Shown one piece after another: positions 6,561 through 34,430 of a DNA stretch of 56,769 nt; position 1 is the first letter of the stretch, and every line of letters starts with the position of its first letter. The notes under the pieces were generated by a model. It saw only the letters and a list, made by a program, of their open reading frames with translations. It made no database searches and was not told where the DNA came from. Source of the DNA: a virus. Location: the IMG/VR virus record IMGVR_UViG_3300045973_000630, positions 1 to 56,769 of that record, one strand, 5' to 3'. A program made the translations under genes and the position numbers.

Positions 6561-6676
6561 CTATTTGGGAACCTAGTACATGTTTCATATAACTTAATAA
6601 GCTTACGAGTATTATGTGAATTTACTTAAGGAAATAACTAAGATAGAATCTAAGAAAATCCAGGAGGAATTAACAA

Positions 6677-9277
6677 ATGTCAAAACGAATTATTACTCGC
6701 GAACAACTAATAGATCCCAAACTAAAAGGCTTAACTGCAATCTCGAGCGTAGTTAAACGAACTTTAGGACCAGGTGGACTATTAATTTTAATCGAAAGAG
6801 TTGGGCAAACACTAGAAGGACTTCCGCTCGGGCCTAAGATCACAAAGGATGGGGTAAGTGTCGCGGAAGAGTGCGCATCTATAGATAAGGCTGAAGATAT
6901 TATAATTCAAGCGGTTAAGGGAATTTGCCGTAAAACAGTTAGTACTGCGGGTGATGGCCCCCAACCACTTTATAGTAAAGTTCTTACTCCAAAAGGTTTT
7001 ATAGAGATGCGAGATGTAAGGGTTGGGATGGTTATCTGTGGTACTAACGGAACAGTTCAAAAAGTTTTAGGGGTTTTCCCAAAAGGCCAAAAAGAGATCT
7101 ATGAAGTAGAGATTCAAAATAAAGGAATAGTAGAATGTTGCGAAGACCATGTTTGGTCAGTTACTAAAAACAGTAATGGGGGCGCGGATTCTGTAAAATC
7201 TGTAGCGGAACTTATAAAAGATTATAAAAAAGAAGGTATACAGTCTACAAAATATAATTATTATATACCAAAAACTCCGGTTTACTTTCAAGAGAATACT
7301 GCGGAAATGCCCTTAGACCCATATTTACTTGGAGTTTTGTTAGGAGATGGTTGTTTAAAAGATGGTTCTAGTATTGAGTTAGGACTGGGAGTTAAAAAAG
7401 AACATATATTACAAAAATTAAAACCACCTAAGGGAATTAATACAAATATCCAATTTGTAGAGTCTAGGAATTATTTTAGAGTTAAATTTTCAGGTATTTC
7501 GGAGACCGGAAAATCAATGAGAGATTATGTAGAGTCTTTAGGATTAAGAGACGCAGGTAGTTTTACTAAGTTTATTCCAAAATCCTATTTATACGCCTCT
7601 ATTGAAACTAGATCCCAAGTCCTACAAGGATTAATTGATACAGACGGATGCGTTAACGAGCGAGGCTTATTTGAGTTTAGTACAGGCTCAAAAGAACTAG
7701 CAACGGACCTTCGAGACCTAGTTTTGAGTTTAGGTAAGACAGTTCATATGTATCTCAGAGATCGAAGTAATGACAATGCATTCTCAAAGACTCCCATGTA
7801 TAGAATTGGAGAATTAAAAGGATTTATACATGGAGATAAAATAAAAGAAATTAAAGCTACTGGCAGGTTTACCGAAATGCAGTGCATTAAAGTAAGTAAT
7901 CCGGATAGTTTATACATAACGGATAATTATGTAGTTACACATAATACCACAACTGCTATGGTATTAGGTGAAGCAATTGTAAACGAGACCGAGCGCATCT
8001 TAAAAGAAGATACTAAGCTTAACCCGCAATTAGTTAGAGAATCTCTAGAAGAGGCATCTTTACAAGTAATTAAGAAACTTAAAAAGATAGCAATTAAAGT
8101 TAATAATAATAAAACTATCCAACAAGTAGCTACAATCTCTGCAAACGGAGACGAATCTATTGGAGATATTATCGCAGCAGCTTTTGCGCATGTAGGTGCC
8201 GAAGGGGTTGTAACTGTAGATGAGGGACATACTTCAAAAGTTACCTTAGATGTAGTTGACGGATATCAGTTCAATAGGGGCGCCGAGGGTCGTACCGCGT
8301 TTTTCAATAATAGAGACGCAACCCAATTTGAAGCGGAAGATGCAGCATTAATTATTTATGATGGAAAATTATATAACTATACTCAATTAATTCCAGCACT
8401 TAAGTTATTAGCGGGAGTCGGTGCGGATGAAAAAGCATCTCGAAAGATGCCGCCCACTGTAATTGTGGCAAATGAGTTCAGTCCAGAAGTACTTCAGTTC
8501 CTGTTAATTCAAAAAACAGAGATGGGGATGACCTTCTGTCCAATCACTGGACCGAATACTACCCATGTGAGATCTGGGTACTATGATGATTTAGCAGTTT
8601 ACTCAGGTGGAACTAGACTTGGAAATGGAGCACGCAACCTTGAGTCTATTGAAATGGATGATATTGGCCTCGTAAAAAGAGCATTATCTGATAAATATAA
8701 AACTACATTATATGATGGGCAAGGTTCTGAAGAATCAATTCTAGAAAGAGTAGACCAATTAAAAGCTGCAAAAGCACAAGCAGAGTCCCCATATGACGCA
8801 CAAATCTTAAATGATAGACTTGCATCACTAACTAATGGTATAGCTAAAATTGGAGTTGGTGGAACTACTGAAATGGAAATTAAAGAGAAGTATGACCGAA
8901 TAGAGGATGCATTAAACGCAGCACGCGCGGCAATCGAGGAGGGAGTTGTACCAGGCGGTGGAACTACTTTATTAAGAATTGCGTTAGAGATGCCTGAGAA
9001 GACAGTTGGTCAAAAGATCCTAAAAGTAGCATTACAAGCTCCATTCTTTCAAATCTTAGAGAATATTGGTATTTTTAAAGAAGAAGCTCTAGAAGTGTCT
9101 AAAACTCTCGTTAAGAGTAAAAGTAAGGTTTATGATGCAAGAACTAAGCAGATCAAAAATGCGATGACTGCGGGGATTATAGACCCAGTAAAGGTGACTA
9201 GAACTGCCTTGGAGAACGCGGTATCAATAGCAACCCTATTAAGTACTTGCGGTGGAGCAATTACTTACGAAAAATAA
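6677..9277 (+). CDS. groEL: GroEL-type chaperonin interrupted by a class 3 intein
   Basis: The 866-codon precursor splices to a 537-residue chaperonin (E. coli GroEL is 548). Extein motifs are KRTLGPGG, TKDGVSVA, AGDG/TTTA (nucleotide phosphate loop, split by the intein), IEDALNAARAAIEEGVVPGGG in separate short segments near the C-terminus, and no Gly-Met tail. The apical domain (TVDEGH...QFNRG) is more divergent, as expected if it is tuned to a phage substrate. The product should form a ring that folds phage proteins with ATP; the partner is probably the GroES-like protein at 35933. ATG follows AGGAGG. A strong terminator follows at 9307, so the gene is probably a single transcription unit. 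Confidence 0.95.
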   Translation: MSKRIITREQLIDPKLKGLTAISSVVKRTLGPGGLLILIERVGQTLEGLPLGPKITKDGVSVAEECASIDKAEDIIIQAVKGICRKTVSTAGDGPQPLYSKVLTPKGFIEMRDVRVGMVICGTNGTVQKVLGVFPKGQKEIYEVEIQNKGIVECCEDHVWSVTKNSNGGADSVKSVAELIKDYKKEGIQSTKYNYYIPKTPVYFQENTAEMPLDPYLLGVLLGDGCLKDGSSIELGLGVKKEHILQKLKPPKGINTNIQFVESRNYFRVKFSGISETGKSMRDYVESLGLRDAGSFTKFIPKSYLYASIETRSQVLQGLIDTDGCVNERGLFEFSTGSKELATDLRDLVLSLGKTVHMYLRDRSNDNAFSKTPMYRIGELKGFIHGDKIKEIKATGRFTEMQCIKVSNPDSLYITDNYVVTHNTTTAMVLGEAIVNETERILKEDTKLNPQLVRESLEEASLQVIKKLKKIAIKVNNNKTIQQVATISANGDESIGDIIAAAFAHVGAEGVVTVDEGHTSKVTLDVVDGYQFNRGAEGRTAFFNNRDATQFEAEDAALIIYDGKLYNYTQLIPALKLLAGVGADEKASRKMPPTVIVANEFSPEVLQFLLIQKTEMGMTFCPITGPNTTHVRSGYYDDLAVYSGGTRLGNGARNLESIEMDDIGLVKRALSDKYKTTLYDGQGSEESILERVDQLKAAKAQAESPYDAQILNDRLASLTNGIAKIGVGGTTEMEIKEKYDRIEDALNAARAAIEEGVVPGGGTTLLRIALEMPEKTVGQKILKVALQAPFFQILENIGIFKEEALEVSKTLVKSKSKVYDARTKQIKNAMTAGIIDPVKVTRTALENAVSIATLLSTCGGAITYEK
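6959..7945 (+). mobile_element. class 3 intein with LAGLIDADG homing endonuclease, inside groEL
   Basis: Codons 95-423 of the groEL precursor (329 residues) replace nothing in the chaperonin: AGDG before and TTTA after restore AGDGTTTA. The first residue is Pro95, not Cys or Ser. The class 3 WCT triplet is present: Trp160 two residues after block B His158, Cys403 at block F position 4 (QCIKV), and Thr421 before the terminal His-Asn (THN, 421-423). The +1 residue is Thr. Block A reads YSKVLTPKGF. Two dodecapeptides, YLLGVLLGDG (216-225) and LQGLIDTDG (316-324), mark a LAGLIDADG endonuclease. Splicing would use Cys403 as the branching nucleophile. Confidence 0.92.
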
Positions 9278-9399: not shown

Positions 9400-11250
9400 T
9401 TGAATAAATCAAATAAACTATTATCGGATCTAGTTACCTTTAAAACATATGCACATTATATAGAACATCTAAGTAGACGCGAAACTCTCAATGAGGTTAT
9501 AACTAGAAATAGACAAATGCACCTAGACAAGTTTCCAAAGTTAGCAGATGACATAGTGAAAGCTTACGAGCAAGTTTATGACTTAAAAGTAATGCCTTCG
9601 ATGAGGTCACTTCAGTTTGGAGGAAGTGCAATTCAAAAAAATAATACAAGACAATACAATTGTAGCTTTTTACATATGAATCGAGTTAGGGCATTTGCCG
9701 AAACTTTATATCTTCTATTATGTGGGACGGGAGTTGGATTCTCAGTACAAAAACATCATATAAATCAGTTACCAAGAATTAGACATCCTAAACGAGAAAA
9801 TATACATATAATAAACGATAGCATAGAAGGTTGGGCAGACGCGTTAGATGCATTAATGACCGCATATTTTTATGGTGCAATTCGTCCAATTTTTGATTAC
9901 AGTCAAATTTCAGCAAAGGGTACATTATTAGTTACTACTGGATCAAAAGCCCCAGGGCCTGAGCCACTTAAAATAATGCTTGAGACGGTAGAGGCAAAAC
10001 TTAGAACCGTAATTGACCGAAAACTAACAACATTAGAGGTCCACGATTTAGAGTGTATTGCAGCAGAGTGTGTTTTATCCGGCGGAATTCGGAGGGCCGC
10101 ACTTATTAGTCTTTTTGATAAAGATGACGAAGATTTACTTACTTGTAAACAAGGCGAATGGTGGGTAAAAACTCCGTATAGAGCTCGTGCAAATAATAGT
10201 GCAGTATTGCTTCGTAGTGATACAACAAAAGAAGAGTTCCGAAGAGTATACGAGGCTTGCATTAAATCAAATGCTGGCGAACCTGGATTTATATGGACTA
10301 ATAATTTAGAGATGGGAAAAAATCCGTGCTGCGAAATAAGTGTGCTAGACCAAGAATTTTGTAACTTGACAACTACTAGTATTTCCTCACTTATTTCAGA
10401 AACAGATTTAATGAACAGAGTGCAAGCTTCATCATTTATTGGTACACTTCAAGCATCATATACAGACTTTCCGTACTTAGCAGAAAAGTGGAAACAGAAC
10501 TCAGAAGAAGAAGCATTATTAGGTTGTTCATTTACCGGAATTGCTGAATCACATATGTTATCTGCAGAAACTTTACAAACTGCAGCAAATGTAGTTTTAG
10601 ACACAAATTATAAATATGCAAAAATTTTAGGAATTAACCCAGCAGCTCGAGCAACTACAATTAAACCAGAGGGTTCCGCTAGTTGTGTGCTAGGTTCAAG
10701 TTCTGGTATTCATGCTCGCCATTCTAACTTCTATTTAAGAAGAGTACGATTTAATAAAGAAGAACCCTTAGCTAAATATTTAAAATTAGTAATTCCGGAG
10801 TTAATTGAAGATGATCTCTTTTCACAAAGAGATAGCGTAGTTACAATTCCACAAGAATCTCCCCCCAATTCGATAGTCCGAGAACAAGAGTCAGCATTAC
10901 AACTACTAAATCGCGTTCTGTTTTACAATGAGAATTGGATAAAACCAGGACATCGGTCGGGTAGTGATCGACATAATGTTTCGTGCACTATAAATTATAA
11001 GAGTTCCGAAATTGAAGAGCTATTTGAACAAATGTGGGTTAATAGAAATATTTATTCGGGTATAAGTTTATTACCAATGGATGATAGTATTTATCAGCAA
11101 GCCCCGTTTGAAGCTTGTTCTAAAGAACTTTTTGAAAAATATGAAAATTTAGTAAAAGATATTGATTTAACTAAGGTTCTAGAAATAGAAGACTCTACGG
11201 ATCTAACTGGGCAACTAGCTTGTTCTGGAATTTCTTGCGAAATTAAATAA
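9400..11250 (+). CDS. nrdJ: class II (adenosylcobalamin-dependent) ribonucleotide reductase, TTG start
   Basis: 616 residues, shorter than the roughly 740 of the Lactobacillus monomeric enzyme. It starts at TTG after AAGGAG, with a TATGAT box at 9370. Seen are the N-terminal redox Cys in QYNCSFLH, GTGVGFS, NPCCEIS with the thiyl-radical Cys and its Glu, FCNLTT with the second redox Cys, and a C-terminal CSGISC pair that relays electrons from thioredoxin. It reduces ribonucleotides to deoxyribonucleotides using B12, independent of oxygen, so the host must make or import cobalamin. It leads the nucleotide-supply part of the rightward block. Confidence 0.9.
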   Translation: MNKSNKLLSDLVTFKTYAHYIEHLSRRETLNEVITRNRQMHLDKFPKLADDIVKAYEQVYDLKVMPSMRSLQFGGSAIQKNNTRQYNCSFLHMNRVRAFAETLYLLLCGTGVGFSVQKHHINQLPRIRHPKRENIHIINDSIEGWADALDALMTAYFYGAIRPIFDYSQISAKGTLLVTTGSKAPGPEPLKIMLETVEAKLRTVIDRKLTTLEVHDLECIAAECVLSGGIRRAALISLFDKDDEDLLTCKQGEWWVKTPYRARANNSAVLLRSDTTKEEFRRVYEACIKSNAGEPGFIWTNNLEMGKNPCCEISVLDQEFCNLTTTSISSLISETDLMNRVQASSFIGTLQASYTDFPYLAEKWKQNSEEEALLGCSFTGIAESHMLSAETLQTAANVVLDTNYKYAKILGINPAARATTIKPEGSASCVLGSSSGIHARHSNFYLRRVRFNKEEPLAKYLKLVIPELIEDDLFSQRDSVVTIPQESPPNSIVREQESALQLLNRVLFYNENWIKPGHRSGSDRHNVSCTINYKSSEIEELFEQMWVNRNIYSGISLLPMDDSIYQQAPFEACSKELFEKYENLVKDIDLTKVLEIEDSTDLTGQLACSGISCEIK

Positions 11251-11269: not shown

Positions 11270-11734
11270 ATGATAACAATTAAAAAGTTAAATTCATATT
11301 ATAGAAGAGCCTTGACAATAGCTGAGGACTCCCATGATCCGGATACTAAAGTAGCCGCACTTTTAGTAAATTCAGAATCTGGAGCAGTAATCGCAGACGG
11401 TTATAACGGTTTTGTAAGAGGTGCGGATGACGAGAATTTACCTAAAACAAGACCTGAAAAATATCAGTATTTTCTCCATTCTGAAATCAATATGATATGT
11501 AATGCAGCAAGAAATGGAATTAATACTTCAAATTGTATTGTTTTTTGTACACTATCCCCTTGCGCGCATTGCCTACGAGTTTTATATCAAAGCGGTATAA
11601 CTGAAATCTATTTTAAAGATCGGTATAGAGATTTTGATAAAGATTTAATATTAAAAGACTTAAATATAATAGTTACATCTATCGGGGAATTCAGTAAAAT
11701 TGCATTAACCGCTAACAAATTGGGGAATTCATGA
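11270..11734 (+). CDS. deoxycytidylate (dCMP) deaminase
   Basis: 154 residues with the zinc deaminase site His70-x-Glu72 and PCAHC (Cys98, Cys101). The order DPDTKVAALLV, a glycine-rich NGF loop, then HSE matches the phage dCMP deaminase/ComEB family. It converts dCMP to dUMP. If the enzyme at 1120 uses dCMP, the two compete for the same substrate and would set the balance between thymidine and modified cytosine. It overlaps the next gene by four bases. Confidence 0.9.
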   Translation: MITIKKLNSYYRRALTIAEDSHDPDTKVAALLVNSESGAVIADGYNGFVRGADDENLPKTRPEKYQYFLHSEINMICNAARNGINTSNCIVFCTLSPCAHCLRVLYQSGITEIYFKDRYRDFDKDLILKDLNIIVTSIGEFSKIALTANKLGNS

Positions 11735-12313: not shown

Positions 12314-14128
12314 ATGGCTGAAGTATTACGTTCACATATAGACTTTATAATGAAACTTAAAAAACAAGGCAAAACTTATGTACAAGTTTCACAAGCTTTT
12401 ATAAAAAGATTTGGAATTCCAAAAAGTAGCAGTGCGGTTAAAGATACTTTTGATCGATTTAAATCTGAATATGATCTAACAGACCTAAAACCGGTTATAG
12501 AAGTAAAAGACGAAATAACCAGATCTAAAGTACTAACCCAGTTCCTGAAATTAGTAGAAAAGCGTAAATATGTACCAACTAAACTTGAGTTTTTGAAACA
12601 TGTAGATATTTCGAAAGATACTATTGATCGTAAATTTGAATCATTTAATAAATTAGTACAAGACGCCCGAGAGTTAGACCCAAAAGTATTTGAAAATATT
12701 ATAGATGAATCATCGTTCTCAGATGAAGCTTTTAGTGTACTTCGAGAACAAATAGCAGAACATCAAAGATTCGTAATTACCGCAGCAGTCACTGGATGCG
12801 AACCGCACGCAGATGCATTAAGTGCTTTAAACACTTATTGTAAAGCTAATAAAGCTATGTTATTAATCCTACCGTGTTCAGATCCAGCTCACCAAAAAGG
12901 TAAAGAAAACGATTGGGCACTAAGTCATAAACTCCCTAAAGAAAATATAGTTTTTAAAGATGTGGCAATAAATGATAATTTAGTATTATCAACTATTAAA
13001 ATGAGTGCTAAACAACTTCAACCGCTAACTGGACTTAAGCGTATATCTCAAAAACGAGGATCTACAATAGTAGCATCGCCTAAGCAGTTTCTTGAGTTTT
13101 CAGCTAATTCAAACAATAACTTAGAGATTCCGAGAGCCCTAGCGTCGACTGGGGCTATTACTAAAGCTAATTATTCAACTGAGATGTACATGTCTGAACG
13201 AACTGCATATCTAGCTGAAATGGATCATACTCTAGGCGCAGTTATCGTTGAAGTAGAGAGTGACCAAATCTTCCACTTTAGACATATTCAATTTGAAAAG
13301 AAAACTGGAACTATTTACGATTTAGATAGAAAGTACTTAGCTAATGGAAAAACTGAAAAAATTAATATTAAGTTAATTCAAACAGGAGATTGGCACGTTC
13401 AGTCTACTTGTCCAATTGCTAGAAACGCAACAAAGGAAATGATTGAGTTAATGCGCCCAGAAATAGCTACATTTGAAGACTTCTTTGACGGAAATTCGAT
13501 TAATCCACATGAACGTCATAATGTAGTTTCTTTATCTAAAAAATCTAAACAAGGATTACTCTCGTTAGCTACAGAACTAAAGGCATGTAGGGATGAGTTA
13601 GATGCTATATGTAAATGGCCAGTTAAAAATATAGTAATGAAATATGGTAATCATGAGGACTTTTTAAAACGATGGTTAGCAGACGGTTCATTTATTAAAG
13701 ACCCAGAAAACAAAATTCTAGCTATGAAACTAACTATAGCGTTAGAAGAGCATAATGCAATGCCCTTTGAATATGCAATGCGTGAGCTACTAGGATTGGA
13801 ACAACCCGAAAAAATTAAGTTTTTAGAACTAAATGATTCATTTAAAGTATCCGGAATTGAAAATGGAGCACATGGCCATATTGGAAAAAGCGGAAGACGA
13901 AACCCAGCAATGGCGGAGTTAGAAGAATGTTACGGAGCAGTTAATGCCGGACATACACATTCATCTGGTATATTTAGACAAGTATTTAGAGCTGGAACTA
14001 TGACTAAGTTAAAACTATCGTATAATGACGGAGCTTCAACTTGGACTCAATCTAATGTGATACAGCATCATAATGGTACACGTCAAATCATTCATGTTAT
14101 TAATGGTAACTGGCGCCTCAAAAAGTAA
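12314..14128 (+). CDS. HTH plus calcineurin-like metallophosphoesterase
   Basis: 604 residues. The N-terminal ~110 residues read like one or two helix-turn-helix units (KQGKTYVQVSQAFIKRFGI; DISKDTIDRKFESF). The C-terminal half has the metallophosphoesterase ladder GDWH (358-361), GNHE (445-448), GHIG and GHTH (546-549), i.e. two-metal ligands as in Mre11-type nucleases. It probably cleaves DNA phosphodiesters after sequence or structure recognition. T5 A1, which degrades host DNA, is a possible analogue, but I cannot confirm homology. ATG after CAGGAG. Confidence 0.8.
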   Translation: MAEVLRSHIDFIMKLKKQGKTYVQVSQAFIKRFGIPKSSSAVKDTFDRFKSEYDLTDLKPVIEVKDEITRSKVLTQFLKLVEKRKYVPTKLEFLKHVDISKDTIDRKFESFNKLVQDARELDPKVFENIIDESSFSDEAFSVLREQIAEHQRFVITAAVTGCEPHADALSALNTYCKANKAMLLILPCSDPAHQKGKENDWALSHKLPKENIVFKDVAINDNLVLSTIKMSAKQLQPLTGLKRISQKRGSTIVASPKQFLEFSANSNNNLEIPRALASTGAITKANYSTEMYMSERTAYLAEMDHTLGAVIVEVESDQIFHFRHIQFEKKTGTIYDLDRKYLANGKTEKINIKLIQTGDWHVQSTCPIARNATKEMIELMRPEIATFEDFFDGNSINPHERHNVVSLSKKSKQGLLSLATELKACRDELDAICKWPVKNIVMKYGNHEDFLKRWLADGSFIKDPENKILAMKLTIALEEHNAMPFEYAMRELLGLEQPEKIKFLELNDSFKVSGIENGAHGHIGKSGRRNPAMAELEECYGAVNAGHTHSSGIFRQVFRAGTMTKLKLSYNDGASTWTQSNVIQHHNGTRQIIHVINGNWRLKK

Positions 14129-31992: not shown

Positions 31993-32232
31993 GTGGGAAA
32001 GATAAAAATCTTCGTAGAAGATAACGAATCCCAATTAGAAGTAGAAGAATCTTTACATAAAGCTCTAGAATTTCATAGTTCTGGAGATGTGCATGAAACT
32101 GAATTATTTGAAGATGCGGGAGCTCAAGATTTATTAAATAAACTTGAACTTTTGCATAAAAACTTATATATTCAAATACTTAATGAAATTTATGAAGCTT
32201 TAGACGAGGACTATACAAATGGTAACATCTAA
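31993..32232 (+). CDS. hypothetical acidic protein, 79 aa, GTG start
   Basis: Begins with GTG directly after the portal stop (TAA GTG), probably by re-initiation. Strongly acidic (LEVEESLHKALEF, YEALDEDYTNG). Overlaps the start of the MuF-like gene by 14 bases. It may be a small portal- or head-associated factor; no family is recognised. Confidence 0.65.
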   Translation: MGKIKIFVEDNESQLEVEESLHKALEFHSSGDVHETELFEDAGAQDLLNKLELLHKNLYIQILNEIYEALDEDYTNGNI

Positions 32233-34075
32233 AACAACTCTTGAAAAAATTAGAGAAATCATAAGCAAGAATTACGCTAAATTAGCAATTTCAGTATTAG
32301 GCAAATCTGTGTTAACGGATAAAGAACTTAAAGAGTTAAAAGCACAAGGTATTGATATCTCAAATACAGAATCTCTATTTGCATTATTATATAATCATGC
32401 ATTTATCAATCCACCAGAAGATACTCTAGGACCTAAATCTGTAGAAGATATGGAAAGTCAACAATCGGTAAGAGGGCTCCTCCCAGAAGGTTCTGCACAC
32501 GATTATGTTATAGAAAATCTAAATGATAAAACTAAACAACTTATAGACAAGCTTAAAGTAGATGTAATCTCTAGGGTTGAGGGATTAATACGAGAAAATA
32601 ATGATGTGTATCGAGTTGATGCGCTACAAAATTTAGATAGAACAGATTTGTTGGACGAATTGACTAAGGAGTCTAGCCTAGGAAAACTTAAGCAAAAATT
32701 AAGAGACACATCTAAAGAAGCAAACCGAGACTGGCTAAGAGTAGCAGTTACCGAAATGTCTAATGCTATCGGAATAGCGACCACAGATCGAATTGTGGTA
32801 GATAATAGATCTAAAAATTTAGAAGAGGTCTATGTATATAGAATTGCTCATAAAGATGGAAAAACATGTTTTACTGAGGCCGAAGAAGTATGTATGGCTA
32901 CTGGAGAATTGTGTCAGTTAAAGGATATTAAAGTCGGGGATTTATTACAGTCTGGGACTAGGAAAAAAGACAGAAATATAGGGTCGAAATCTAAAGTAGT
33001 TAGAATAGAGACAAAATTAGCAGAAGTGCTAGAATATCAATTTAGTGATGGAACGGTTATAAAGTGTACGTCTGATCATCCTATTTTAGTAAAATATAAA
33101 AAATTCTTAGGATTTATTCCGGTTTATATGTTAGAAACTACTAAGGTTAAATTTACAGTACCAAAGTACCAAGAGTTAACCACTGGAGAACGTGCAAGTA
33201 TAGGACGTATGCCAAGTTGGGCACTACAAATGGCCCCGAACTATACTGATTTCTTTTACTTTTGGCAAGACTATGGTCCTGAATTACTAGCAGATATTAG
33301 AAAAAGTAACTCATTTAAAGATTTACAAGAAAAATGGCAATTCCCGAAAATTGGTAATTGCCGAAATCTAGGCACGTTAGCCGCACTTTGCGGAGAGTCT
33401 TTTTCTAAATATACTAAAATTTCAAGTGCTAATAATAATTATAATGTAGAGTATCTAGAGCACCTTGCCACTAAATGTTTAGCCAAACTAGATTTAAGCG
33501 CGGAGGACCTAACTCGAGATCTAGGGTTGCACGGCTATAAATTTGTTATTAAAAAGTATAATATCAGTTTTCATATTCTAAAATTTTGGGTTATTCAAAA
33601 TTTAGGAAGTGCTTTTGATAAGAAGATTAGAAAATTAGGAAAAATTAGAGCACAACGAGCCGGTCAAACTAGTATTGCAAATACTCCCGGACTTCGCGAA
33701 AAACTAAATAATGAGGCCAGGACTAGACTAATAAGAAATTGTAAATCTACATCAAAACCTCAACGCGTGTTGTTTAATACTTTAAAATTAACATATCCAG
33801 CTATACAGTTAGAGGTCCCGATATTAGAAGCTTTTCGAGCAGATATTTTATTGAATAATATAATTATAGAATTTGATGGAAGTGGGCACTGGCTATTTGG
33901 AAAAGGTAGTAAAGCGCGAGATGAAGCTAGGGATAGACTTTGTACCCGGTATGGGTATTCTGTAATTAGAATTAAATCCCCAAAAGATAAGCAACCACCA
34001 ATTGAGAGTTTAACTAAGATACTAGAAATAATCAAACCTGGAGAATATAAGGAGATACACTGTGATAGTTTCTAA
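32219..34075 (+). CDS. MuF-like head protein N-half + N-intein + EDxHD endonuclease
   Basis: 618 residues in one frame. Residues 1-216 are the N-terminal part of an SPP1 gp7/MuF-like head morphogenesis protein, ending HKDGKT. Cys217 begins an intein N-half: block A CFTEAEEVCMATGEL, then IKVGDLL, and block B TVIKCTSDHPILV (His287). From about residue 320 a linker with DNA-binding-like helices leads to a C-terminal nuclease: RADILL, IIIEFDGSGHW (Glu551, Asp553, His557), then ARDEARDRLCTRYGYSVIRI, the EDxHD (Vsr-like) homing endonuclease pattern. The gene ends with TAA; the intein C-half is in the next gene. Spliced product is predicted at 302 residues. Confidence 0.88.
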   Translation: MVTSKTTLEKIREIISKNYAKLAISVLGKSVLTDKELKELKAQGIDISNTESLFALLYNHAFINPPEDTLGPKSVEDMESQQSVRGLLPEGSAHDYVIENLNDKTKQLIDKLKVDVISRVEGLIRENNDVYRVDALQNLDRTDLLDELTKESSLGKLKQKLRDTSKEANRDWLRVAVTEMSNAIGIATTDRIVVDNRSKNLEEVYVYRIAHKDGKTCFTEAEEVCMATGELCQLKDIKVGDLLQSGTRKKDRNIGSKSKVVRIETKLAEVLEYQFSDGTVIKCTSDHPILVKYKKFLGFIPVYMLETTKVKFTVPKYQELTTGERASIGRMPSWALQMAPNYTDFFYFWQDYGPELLADIRKSNSFKDLQEKWQFPKIGNCRNLGTLAALCGESFSKYTKISSANNNYNVEYLEHLATKCLAKLDLSAEDLTRDLGLHGYKFVIKKYNISFHILKFWVIQNLGSAFDKKIRKLGKIRAQRAGQTSIANTPGLREKLNNEARTRLIRNCKSTSKPQRVLFNTLKLTYPAIQLEVPILEAFRADILLNNIIIEFDGSGHWLFGKGSKARDEARDRLCTRYGYSVIRIKSPKDKQPPIESLTKILEIIKPGEYKEIHCDSF

Positions 34076-34169
34076 GAAATCATTAGGAGTACAGAATATC
34101 GTAGAGTTAGAACTAGATCAAAATTCTAGCAAAACTTATATAAATAAAGACGGAATTATCTCGCACAAT
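32867..34169 (+). mobile_element. split intein with EDxHD homing endonuclease in the MuF-like gene
   Basis: The N-half starts at Cys217 (base 32867); the C-half ends at Asn36 of the second gene (base 34169). They are interrupted by a stop codon and a new, well-formed translation start (AAGGAG at 34049-34054, GTG at 34062). Joining the exteins gives DGKT-CRWCSEFY, restoring the CxxC metal site of MuF-like proteins. The nuclease lies in the same frame as the N-half, unlike fractured genes in which the nuclease is a separate ORF. Confidence 0.85.
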
Positions 34170-34430
34170 TGCAGATGGTGTTCCGAATTTTATGTTGATA
34201 ACGATGGAAGTCCTAAGCTTTATAAGTTAACTTCATTATTAGATAACGGGTCTAACTACGGTAAAAAACGAGATACTTGGCAAGCCGTTATTGGTGCCAC
34301 CCATCCGAATGAGCGATGTTCTGGTATTTTAGAATTAAAACCCGGGTTTATGCTTAAGTCTGATGGGACCAGTACATATATCGGAATGGCTAAATGGCCT
34401 GGATATATTTTGAATAAAGTTCAAAAATAG
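34062..34430 (+). CDS. C-intein + C-terminal half of MuF-like head protein, GTG start
   Basis: 122 residues from GTG, with AAGGAG seven bases upstream. Residues 1-36 are the intein C-half: VELELDQNSSKTYI (block F) and GIISHN (block G). Residue 37 is Cys (+1), beginning CRWCSEFY, then GATHPNERCSGIL, the Cys/His cluster typical of the end of MuF/gp7 proteins. Trans-splicing with the product of 32219 would rebuild a head protein that joins portal and capsid. The gene overlaps the previous one by 14 bases in another frame. Confidence 0.87.
   Translation: MIVSKKSLGVQNIVELELDQNSSKTYINKDGIISHNCRWCSEFYVDNDGSPKLYKLTSLLDNGSNYGKKRDTWQAVIGATHPNERCSGILELKPGFMLKSDGTSTYIGMAKWPGYILNKVQK

Follow-up and report, generated by a model that had tools for sequence, protein, structure and literature searches.

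The window analysed here, the whole 56,769-nucleotide stretch of a metagenomic virus contig that is possibly a fragment (IMG/VR record IMGVR_UViG_3300045973_000630), carries a groEL gene whose chaperonin sequence is interrupted by 329 residues in the phosphate-binding loop. This insert is very probably a class 3 intein with a LAGLIDADG homing endonuclease, and this reading, including the splicing and homing predicted for it, is the best explanation of what we observe. The same insert is present in a family of uncultivated phage GroELs and absent from a close syntenic relative, its distribution indicates horizontal spread, and its endonuclease is decaying in some members of the family.

A class 3 intein in the ATP loop of a phage GroEL

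The GroEL precursor is read from a single 866-aa open reading frame (6677-9277, + strand) that contains no stop and no frameshift. Its features, in window coordinates, are as follows.

6662..6667, +: AGGAGG ribosome-binding site, read from the sequence, 9 nt ahead of the ATG
6677..9277, +: GroEL precursor gene, intein included (866-aa ORF, GroEL profile matches)
6677..6958, +: N-extein, GroEL up to ...TAGDG, E. coli Gly88 (chaperonin alignment; empty-site relative L080)
6959..7945, +: class 3 intein, 329 aa, Pro1 to Asn329 (sequence, alignment, 16-allele comparison, model)
7148..7156, +: block B, His64-x-Trp66, that is HisB:10 and TrpB:12 (aligned to His65/Trp67 of 6rix; invariant in 16 alleles)
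7325..7351, +: first LAGLIDADG motif, LLGVLLGDG, with Asp130 (Pfam match, allele alignment)
7619..7648, +: second LAGLIDADG motif, VLQGLIDTDG, with Asp229 (Pfam match, allele alignment)
7883..7885, +: Cys309, CysF:4, precursor Cys403, the predicted initiating nucleophile (aligned to Cys124 of 6rix; invariant)
7937..7945, +: block G, Thr327-His328-Asn329 (alignment to 6rix, 16-allele comparison)
7946..9277, +: C-extein with stop, GroEL from the +1 Thr, E. coli Thr89 (GroEL profile, chaperonin alignment)

The exteins are those of a group I chaperonin. They match the GroEL family NF009487 of NCBIfam in two pieces (E=3e-113) as well as PHROG 5725 (E=1e-98), the similarity spans the whole extein, and the motifs of the nucleotide site, ITKDG, GDG/TTTA and RIEDALNAARAAIEEG, are all retained; alignment with the solved chaperonin 9rwr likewise finds ITKDG, AGDG/TTTA and EDALNAARAAIEEG all preserved. 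Alignment to solved chaperonins places the AGDG/TTTA junction in the ATP-phosphate-binding loop, with the break between Gly88 and Thr89 in E. coli numbering. The best GroEL match among deposited phages comes from the elemo group of Flavobacterium phages (32% identity over 62% of the query), and that GroEL, unlike the one in the window, has no intein.

The insert comprises precursor residues 95 to 423, begins with PQPLYSKVLTP, ends with VVTHN and is flanked by AGDG and TTTA. Class 3 inteins are defined by the lack of a nucleophile at position 1 and by TrpB:12, CysF:4 and ThrG:5, together with HisB:10, HisG:6, AsnG:7 and a Ser or Thr at +1 (PMC5222942, PMC7664689). Position 1 of the insert is Pro in 16/16 alleles rather than a Cys, Ser or Thr nucleophile. 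In the alignment with 6rix, a class 3 intein from M. chimaera, Trp66, Cys309 and Thr327 match Trp67, Cys124 and Thr143, while His64, His328 and Asn329 match His65, His144 and Asn145; the +1 residue is Thr. These signature residues are invariant in 16/16 GroEL inteins. In a phmmer search against solved structures, gp41-1 and the class 3 intein of M. chimaera DnaB1 both aligned to the window intein. The AlphaFold2 model of the intein (25 aligned inteins as input; mean pLDDT 93.7, pTM 0.90) adopts a Hint fold like that of solved class 3 inteins. Over its whole length it is structurally most similar to PI-SceI (Z 25.6); its splicing domain is closest to those of 6bs8 (Z 19.4; 123 residues at an rmsd of 1.5 A) and 6rix/6riy (Z 19.2), all of them class 3 inteins. 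With the intein alone as query, Pfam LAGLIDADG_3 (PF14528) matches at E=5e-7, and each of the two motifs retains its catalytic Asp (Asp130 and Asp229).

The preliminary description of this DNA, made from the sequence alone, had placed a 329-residue class 3 intein at 6959-7945, starting with Pro, ending with THN and splitting AGDG from TTTA of a phage GroEL at the ATP phosphate loop. These boundaries are exact to the base, and Trp160, Cys403, Thr421 and Asn423 of the precursor stand exactly where it put them and align to residues of a solved class 3 intein. The class and the host are upheld by the signature alignment, the model, all 16 alleles and the empty allele. Displacement of Cys403 or Pro95 from class 3 positions had been named as grounds for abandoning the assignment; Cys309 lies on Cys124 of 6rix, and Pro1 recurs in 16/16 alleles. 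The two LAGLIDADG motifs it noticed are LLGVLLGDG and LQGLIDTDG, with the Pfam match to back them.

Degenerate intein genes do exist, Arth_1007 being an example (PMC3196547). In one pair of relatives, L010/L011 (L041/L042), the intein carries a 1-nt insertion. It is nevertheless very improbable that the window insert no longer splices and that the gene is a pseudogene or encodes a permanently inactive GroEL: the frame stays open over 866 codons behind a strong ribosome-binding site, the catalytic residues are all intact within a confidently predicted fold, and the GroEL motifs ITKDG, GDG/TTTA and RIEDALNAARAAIEEG are preserved.

An HMM search detected no further class 3 intein elsewhere in the window. 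A second intein of another kind lies at 32219-34075 and 34062-34430 (+). The ORF at 32219-34075 is head-protein-like and ends in a Hint N-part that starts at Cys, together with a Vsr/DUF559-like endonuclease; the overlapping ORF at 34062-34430 opens with an intein C-part ending in SHN, followed by CRWCSEFY. In the relatives L316 and L317 the protein is uninterrupted (TCKYCRRFY). Two readings fit this second intein (32219-34430): a class 1 intein that is split naturally, or a single intein disrupted by a frameshift.

Distribution among phage GroELs and endonuclease decay

Scans of IMG/VR with protein and alignment queries gave many class 3 inteins, from which those with GroEL hosts were picked by their flanks. 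Sixteen distinct intact inteins (the window, L003, L005, L007, L008, L024, L029, L030, L031, L032, L033, L038, L039, L040, L046 and L070) and one frameshifted intein (L041/L042) were found, all at GDG/T of a phage GroEL; the count is a lower bound, and at least 15 uncultivated phages other than that of the window carry an intein at this junction. All ten hosts scanned against NCBIfam match GroEL, including the most divergent, L033 and L038. When analysed together with 24 class 3 inteins of other hosts (helicases, PhoH-like proteins, portals and others, named by their flanking motifs), the sixteen group as a single clade (100/100). Two class 3 inteins, L012 and L063, lie in apparent phage portal proteins at a site without an obvious phosphate-binding loop. 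GroES was not found within the window, the record of which is possibly a fragment; the intein-bearing contigs of L032 and L036 also encode GroES (Cpn10) above the Pfam cut-off, and nine other contigs checked, including that of L080, do not.

Since the window comes from a metagenomic record, mis-assembly might have fused the intein to GroEL. At least 16 contigs, drawn from many IMG/VR samples and encoding different GroELs, share the junction, and these independent contigs refute a chimera, to which we assign a negligible probability.

The intein-free state of the gene is seen in L080, the best relative of the C-extein in IMG/VR, whose GroEL is 69% identical to that of the window and in which AGDG is followed directly by TTTA. 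L080 is syntenic with the window, with 57% identity in the helicase, 67-70% in GroEL and 50%, 57% and 63% in the next genes. Because the same insert occupies the same junction in many phage GroELs and the junction is uninterrupted in this syntenic relative, a chance insert is excluded. Directly after groEL the window encodes an adenosylcobalamin-type ribonucleotide reductase (9400-11250, +). The gene after groEL in L080 is not a reductase but a homologue of window 11270-11734, so the reductase represents a further insertion or loss. A homologue of phage DNA transfer proteins follows at 12314-14128 (+; PHROG 1745, E=1e-90).

Empty sites prevail among the nearest chaperonins. Among the best GroEL matches to a first C-extein alignment, 74 of 80 are empty and 6 are unclassified; to a second alignment, 70 of 75 are empty, 2 are intein-bearing contigs already in the set and 3 are unclassified. 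The hosts of the intein alleles, unlike the inteins themselves, form no single clade, and intein presence requires 7 changes of state on the extein tree (bootstrap range 6-8). A second extein tree was built without L033 and L038, which have very long branches, and without L041, a near copy of L008. For the AU tests, groups were picked from the other tree after both had been seen, and some extein branches are long. On these terms the extein data reject monophyly of the window with L003 (p-AU 1.6e-76) and of the intein hosts as a whole (p-AU 6e-44), and the intein data reject two groupings taken from the extein tree, L003 with L031 (p 0.011) and a clade of eight hosts (0.012). In 90 of 91 pairs the inteins are more alike than the exteins (median identity 50% versus 27%), an excess that may partly reflect a fast-evolving phage GroEL. 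As judged from these sequences, the distribution favours repeated horizontal acquisition, presumably by homing, over descent with the chaperonin.

Loss of the endonuclease is visible in stages. The first catalytic Asp is replaced by Gly in L003, the first half of the endonuclease is missing from L046, and L070 has lost the endonuclease wholly, leaving a 139-residue mini-intein; despite this decay, all three keep the splicing residues. Mean pairwise column identity is 61% and 73% in the splicing blocks, 47% in the endonuclease and 27% in the linker. This pattern agrees with cyclical homing, in which the endonuclease is dispensable and splicing obligatory. Compared with the near-identical L008, the intein of L041/L042 (L010/L011) has an additional A within a poly-A stretch that breaks the frame, through either decay or a sequencing error.

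Because the intein and extein trees conflict, the L080 site is empty and the endonuclease decays, we regard the intein as a homing element that probably moves among phage chaperonin genes. The predicted target of its endonuclease half is groEL without an intein, which would be cut within or close to the conserved DNA GGNGAYGGN/ACNACN, after which the intein would be copied in. The DNA around the insertion site is conserved mainly through conservation of the protein loop, and this conservation is no proof of a cutting site. Once established, the intein would tend to persist, as its clean loss would require precise excision from an active-site codon.

Predicted splicing and a possible regulatory role

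In the predicted splicing pathway, Cys309 in block F, activated by His64 and Thr327, would attack the Gly94-Pro95 bond to give a block F thioester branch, and the acyl group would then pass to the +1 Thr of the chaperonin. Cyclisation of Asn329 would release the intein, and an O-N shift would join AGDG to TTTA, yielding a 537-residue GroEL with its ATP site restored. The +1 Thr is a residue of the ATP-phosphate loop and also the predicted splicing nucleophile. Given the position of the insertion, it is a fair inference that the unspliced precursor is inactive.

The preliminary description went on to suggest that splicing, since it depends on one Cys, could act as a timing or redox switch. Interruption of the ATP loop should indeed inactivate the precursor, and a precedent for redox control is found in the class 3 DnaBi1 of M. 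smegmatis, which oxidation reversibly inhibits through a disulfide between the catalytic Cys118 and the non-catalytic Cys48 (PMC6195587). The position of Cys48 is occupied by Ile47 in the window and by Ile, Leu or Val in 16/16 GroEL inteins. Because Cys48 is replaced in all sixteen, the DnaBi1 disulfide mechanism is unavailable to them, and the redox switch fails in this form. Dependence on one Cys is right insofar as a single nucleophile is predicted; the intein has six cysteines (27, 60, 61, 132, 231 and 309). Another thiol effect is possible through Cys60, which adjoins block B four residues before His64 and is invariant in 16/16 GroEL inteins, and a regulated timing of GroEL activation by splicing is likewise possible. 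We consider it improbable that splicing gates activation, with an inactive GroEL precursor switched on at a defined moment or under a defined condition of infection, perhaps by way of Cys60. It is likewise improbable that the intein owes its retention to a delay or gating of chaperonin activation by splicing, responsive to oxidation or to the time elapsed since infection: the intein is missing from the syntenic L080 and from most sampled phage GroELs (74/80 and 70/75 empty), and it is spread over the GroEL tree as expected of a mobile element. A homing-like distribution requires no regulatory role for the intein, and mobility is the explanation that we prefer.

Relation to known inteins

The preliminary description knew of no intein in a GroEL, which is consistent with our searches of deposited phages and of the open-access literature, the latter represented mostly by titles and abstracts. 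Among 50,697 deposited phage genomes, the intein alone has matches in 769 records, tblastn with the whole precursor gave no record covering 80% of the query, and no intein-bearing GroEL was found. A GTDB scan with a five-member alignment confirmed no GroEL intein in bacteria or archaea. With a wider alignment, none of the 39 inteins with flanks read among the best 80 of 315 class 3 relatives lies in a chaperonin, most being at P-loops, and a motif check of these best 80 gave two matches only, both out of context. The open-access titles and abstracts searched contained no report of an intein in a GroEL, chaperonin, Hsp60 or thermosome. Within the reach of these records, class 3 inteins gain a new host protein, the chaperonin, in which ordinary class 3 chemistry is predicted for a protein family without an earlier report in that literature.

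The preference of class 3 inteins for phosphate-binding loops thereby extends from P-loop NTPases to an unrelated ATP-binding fold, and in GroEL, as in P-loops, Thr can serve both as splicing nucleophile and as loop residue. The uncultivated phages offer a graded series for the study of homing and endonuclease loss, from full-length inteins through loss of a catalytic motif and loss of half the endonuclease to a mini-intein and an empty site, and splicing of the precursor could be read out through GroEL ATPase activity or ring formation.

The closest parallels are the mycobacterial inteins DnaBi1/MchDnaB1 (6bs8, 6rix, 6riy), which share the class 3 signature, the splicing-domain fold (Z 19) and insertion in a phosphate-binding loop, with a +1 hydroxyl residue that serves both splicing and nucleotide binding. 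They are mini-inteins in the DnaB P-loop, whereas the GroEL intein carries an endonuclease, resides in a chaperonin and lacks the Cys48 equivalent. Full-length class 3 inteins of phage and bacterial helicases, PhoH, terminases and portals have the same architecture at roughly 30-36% identity, and the GroEL inteins form a clade separate (100/100) from those in helicases, PhoH and portals. Most bacterial class 3 inteins examined split GK from T of a P-loop, whereas the GroEL inteins split GDG from T in a fold unrelated to P-loop NTPases. PI-SceI, the yeast VMA1 intein, also combines a Hint splicing domain with a LAGLIDADG endonuclease, but it is a class 1 intein that starts with Cys1, resides in another host and shares about 20% identity with the GroEL intein.
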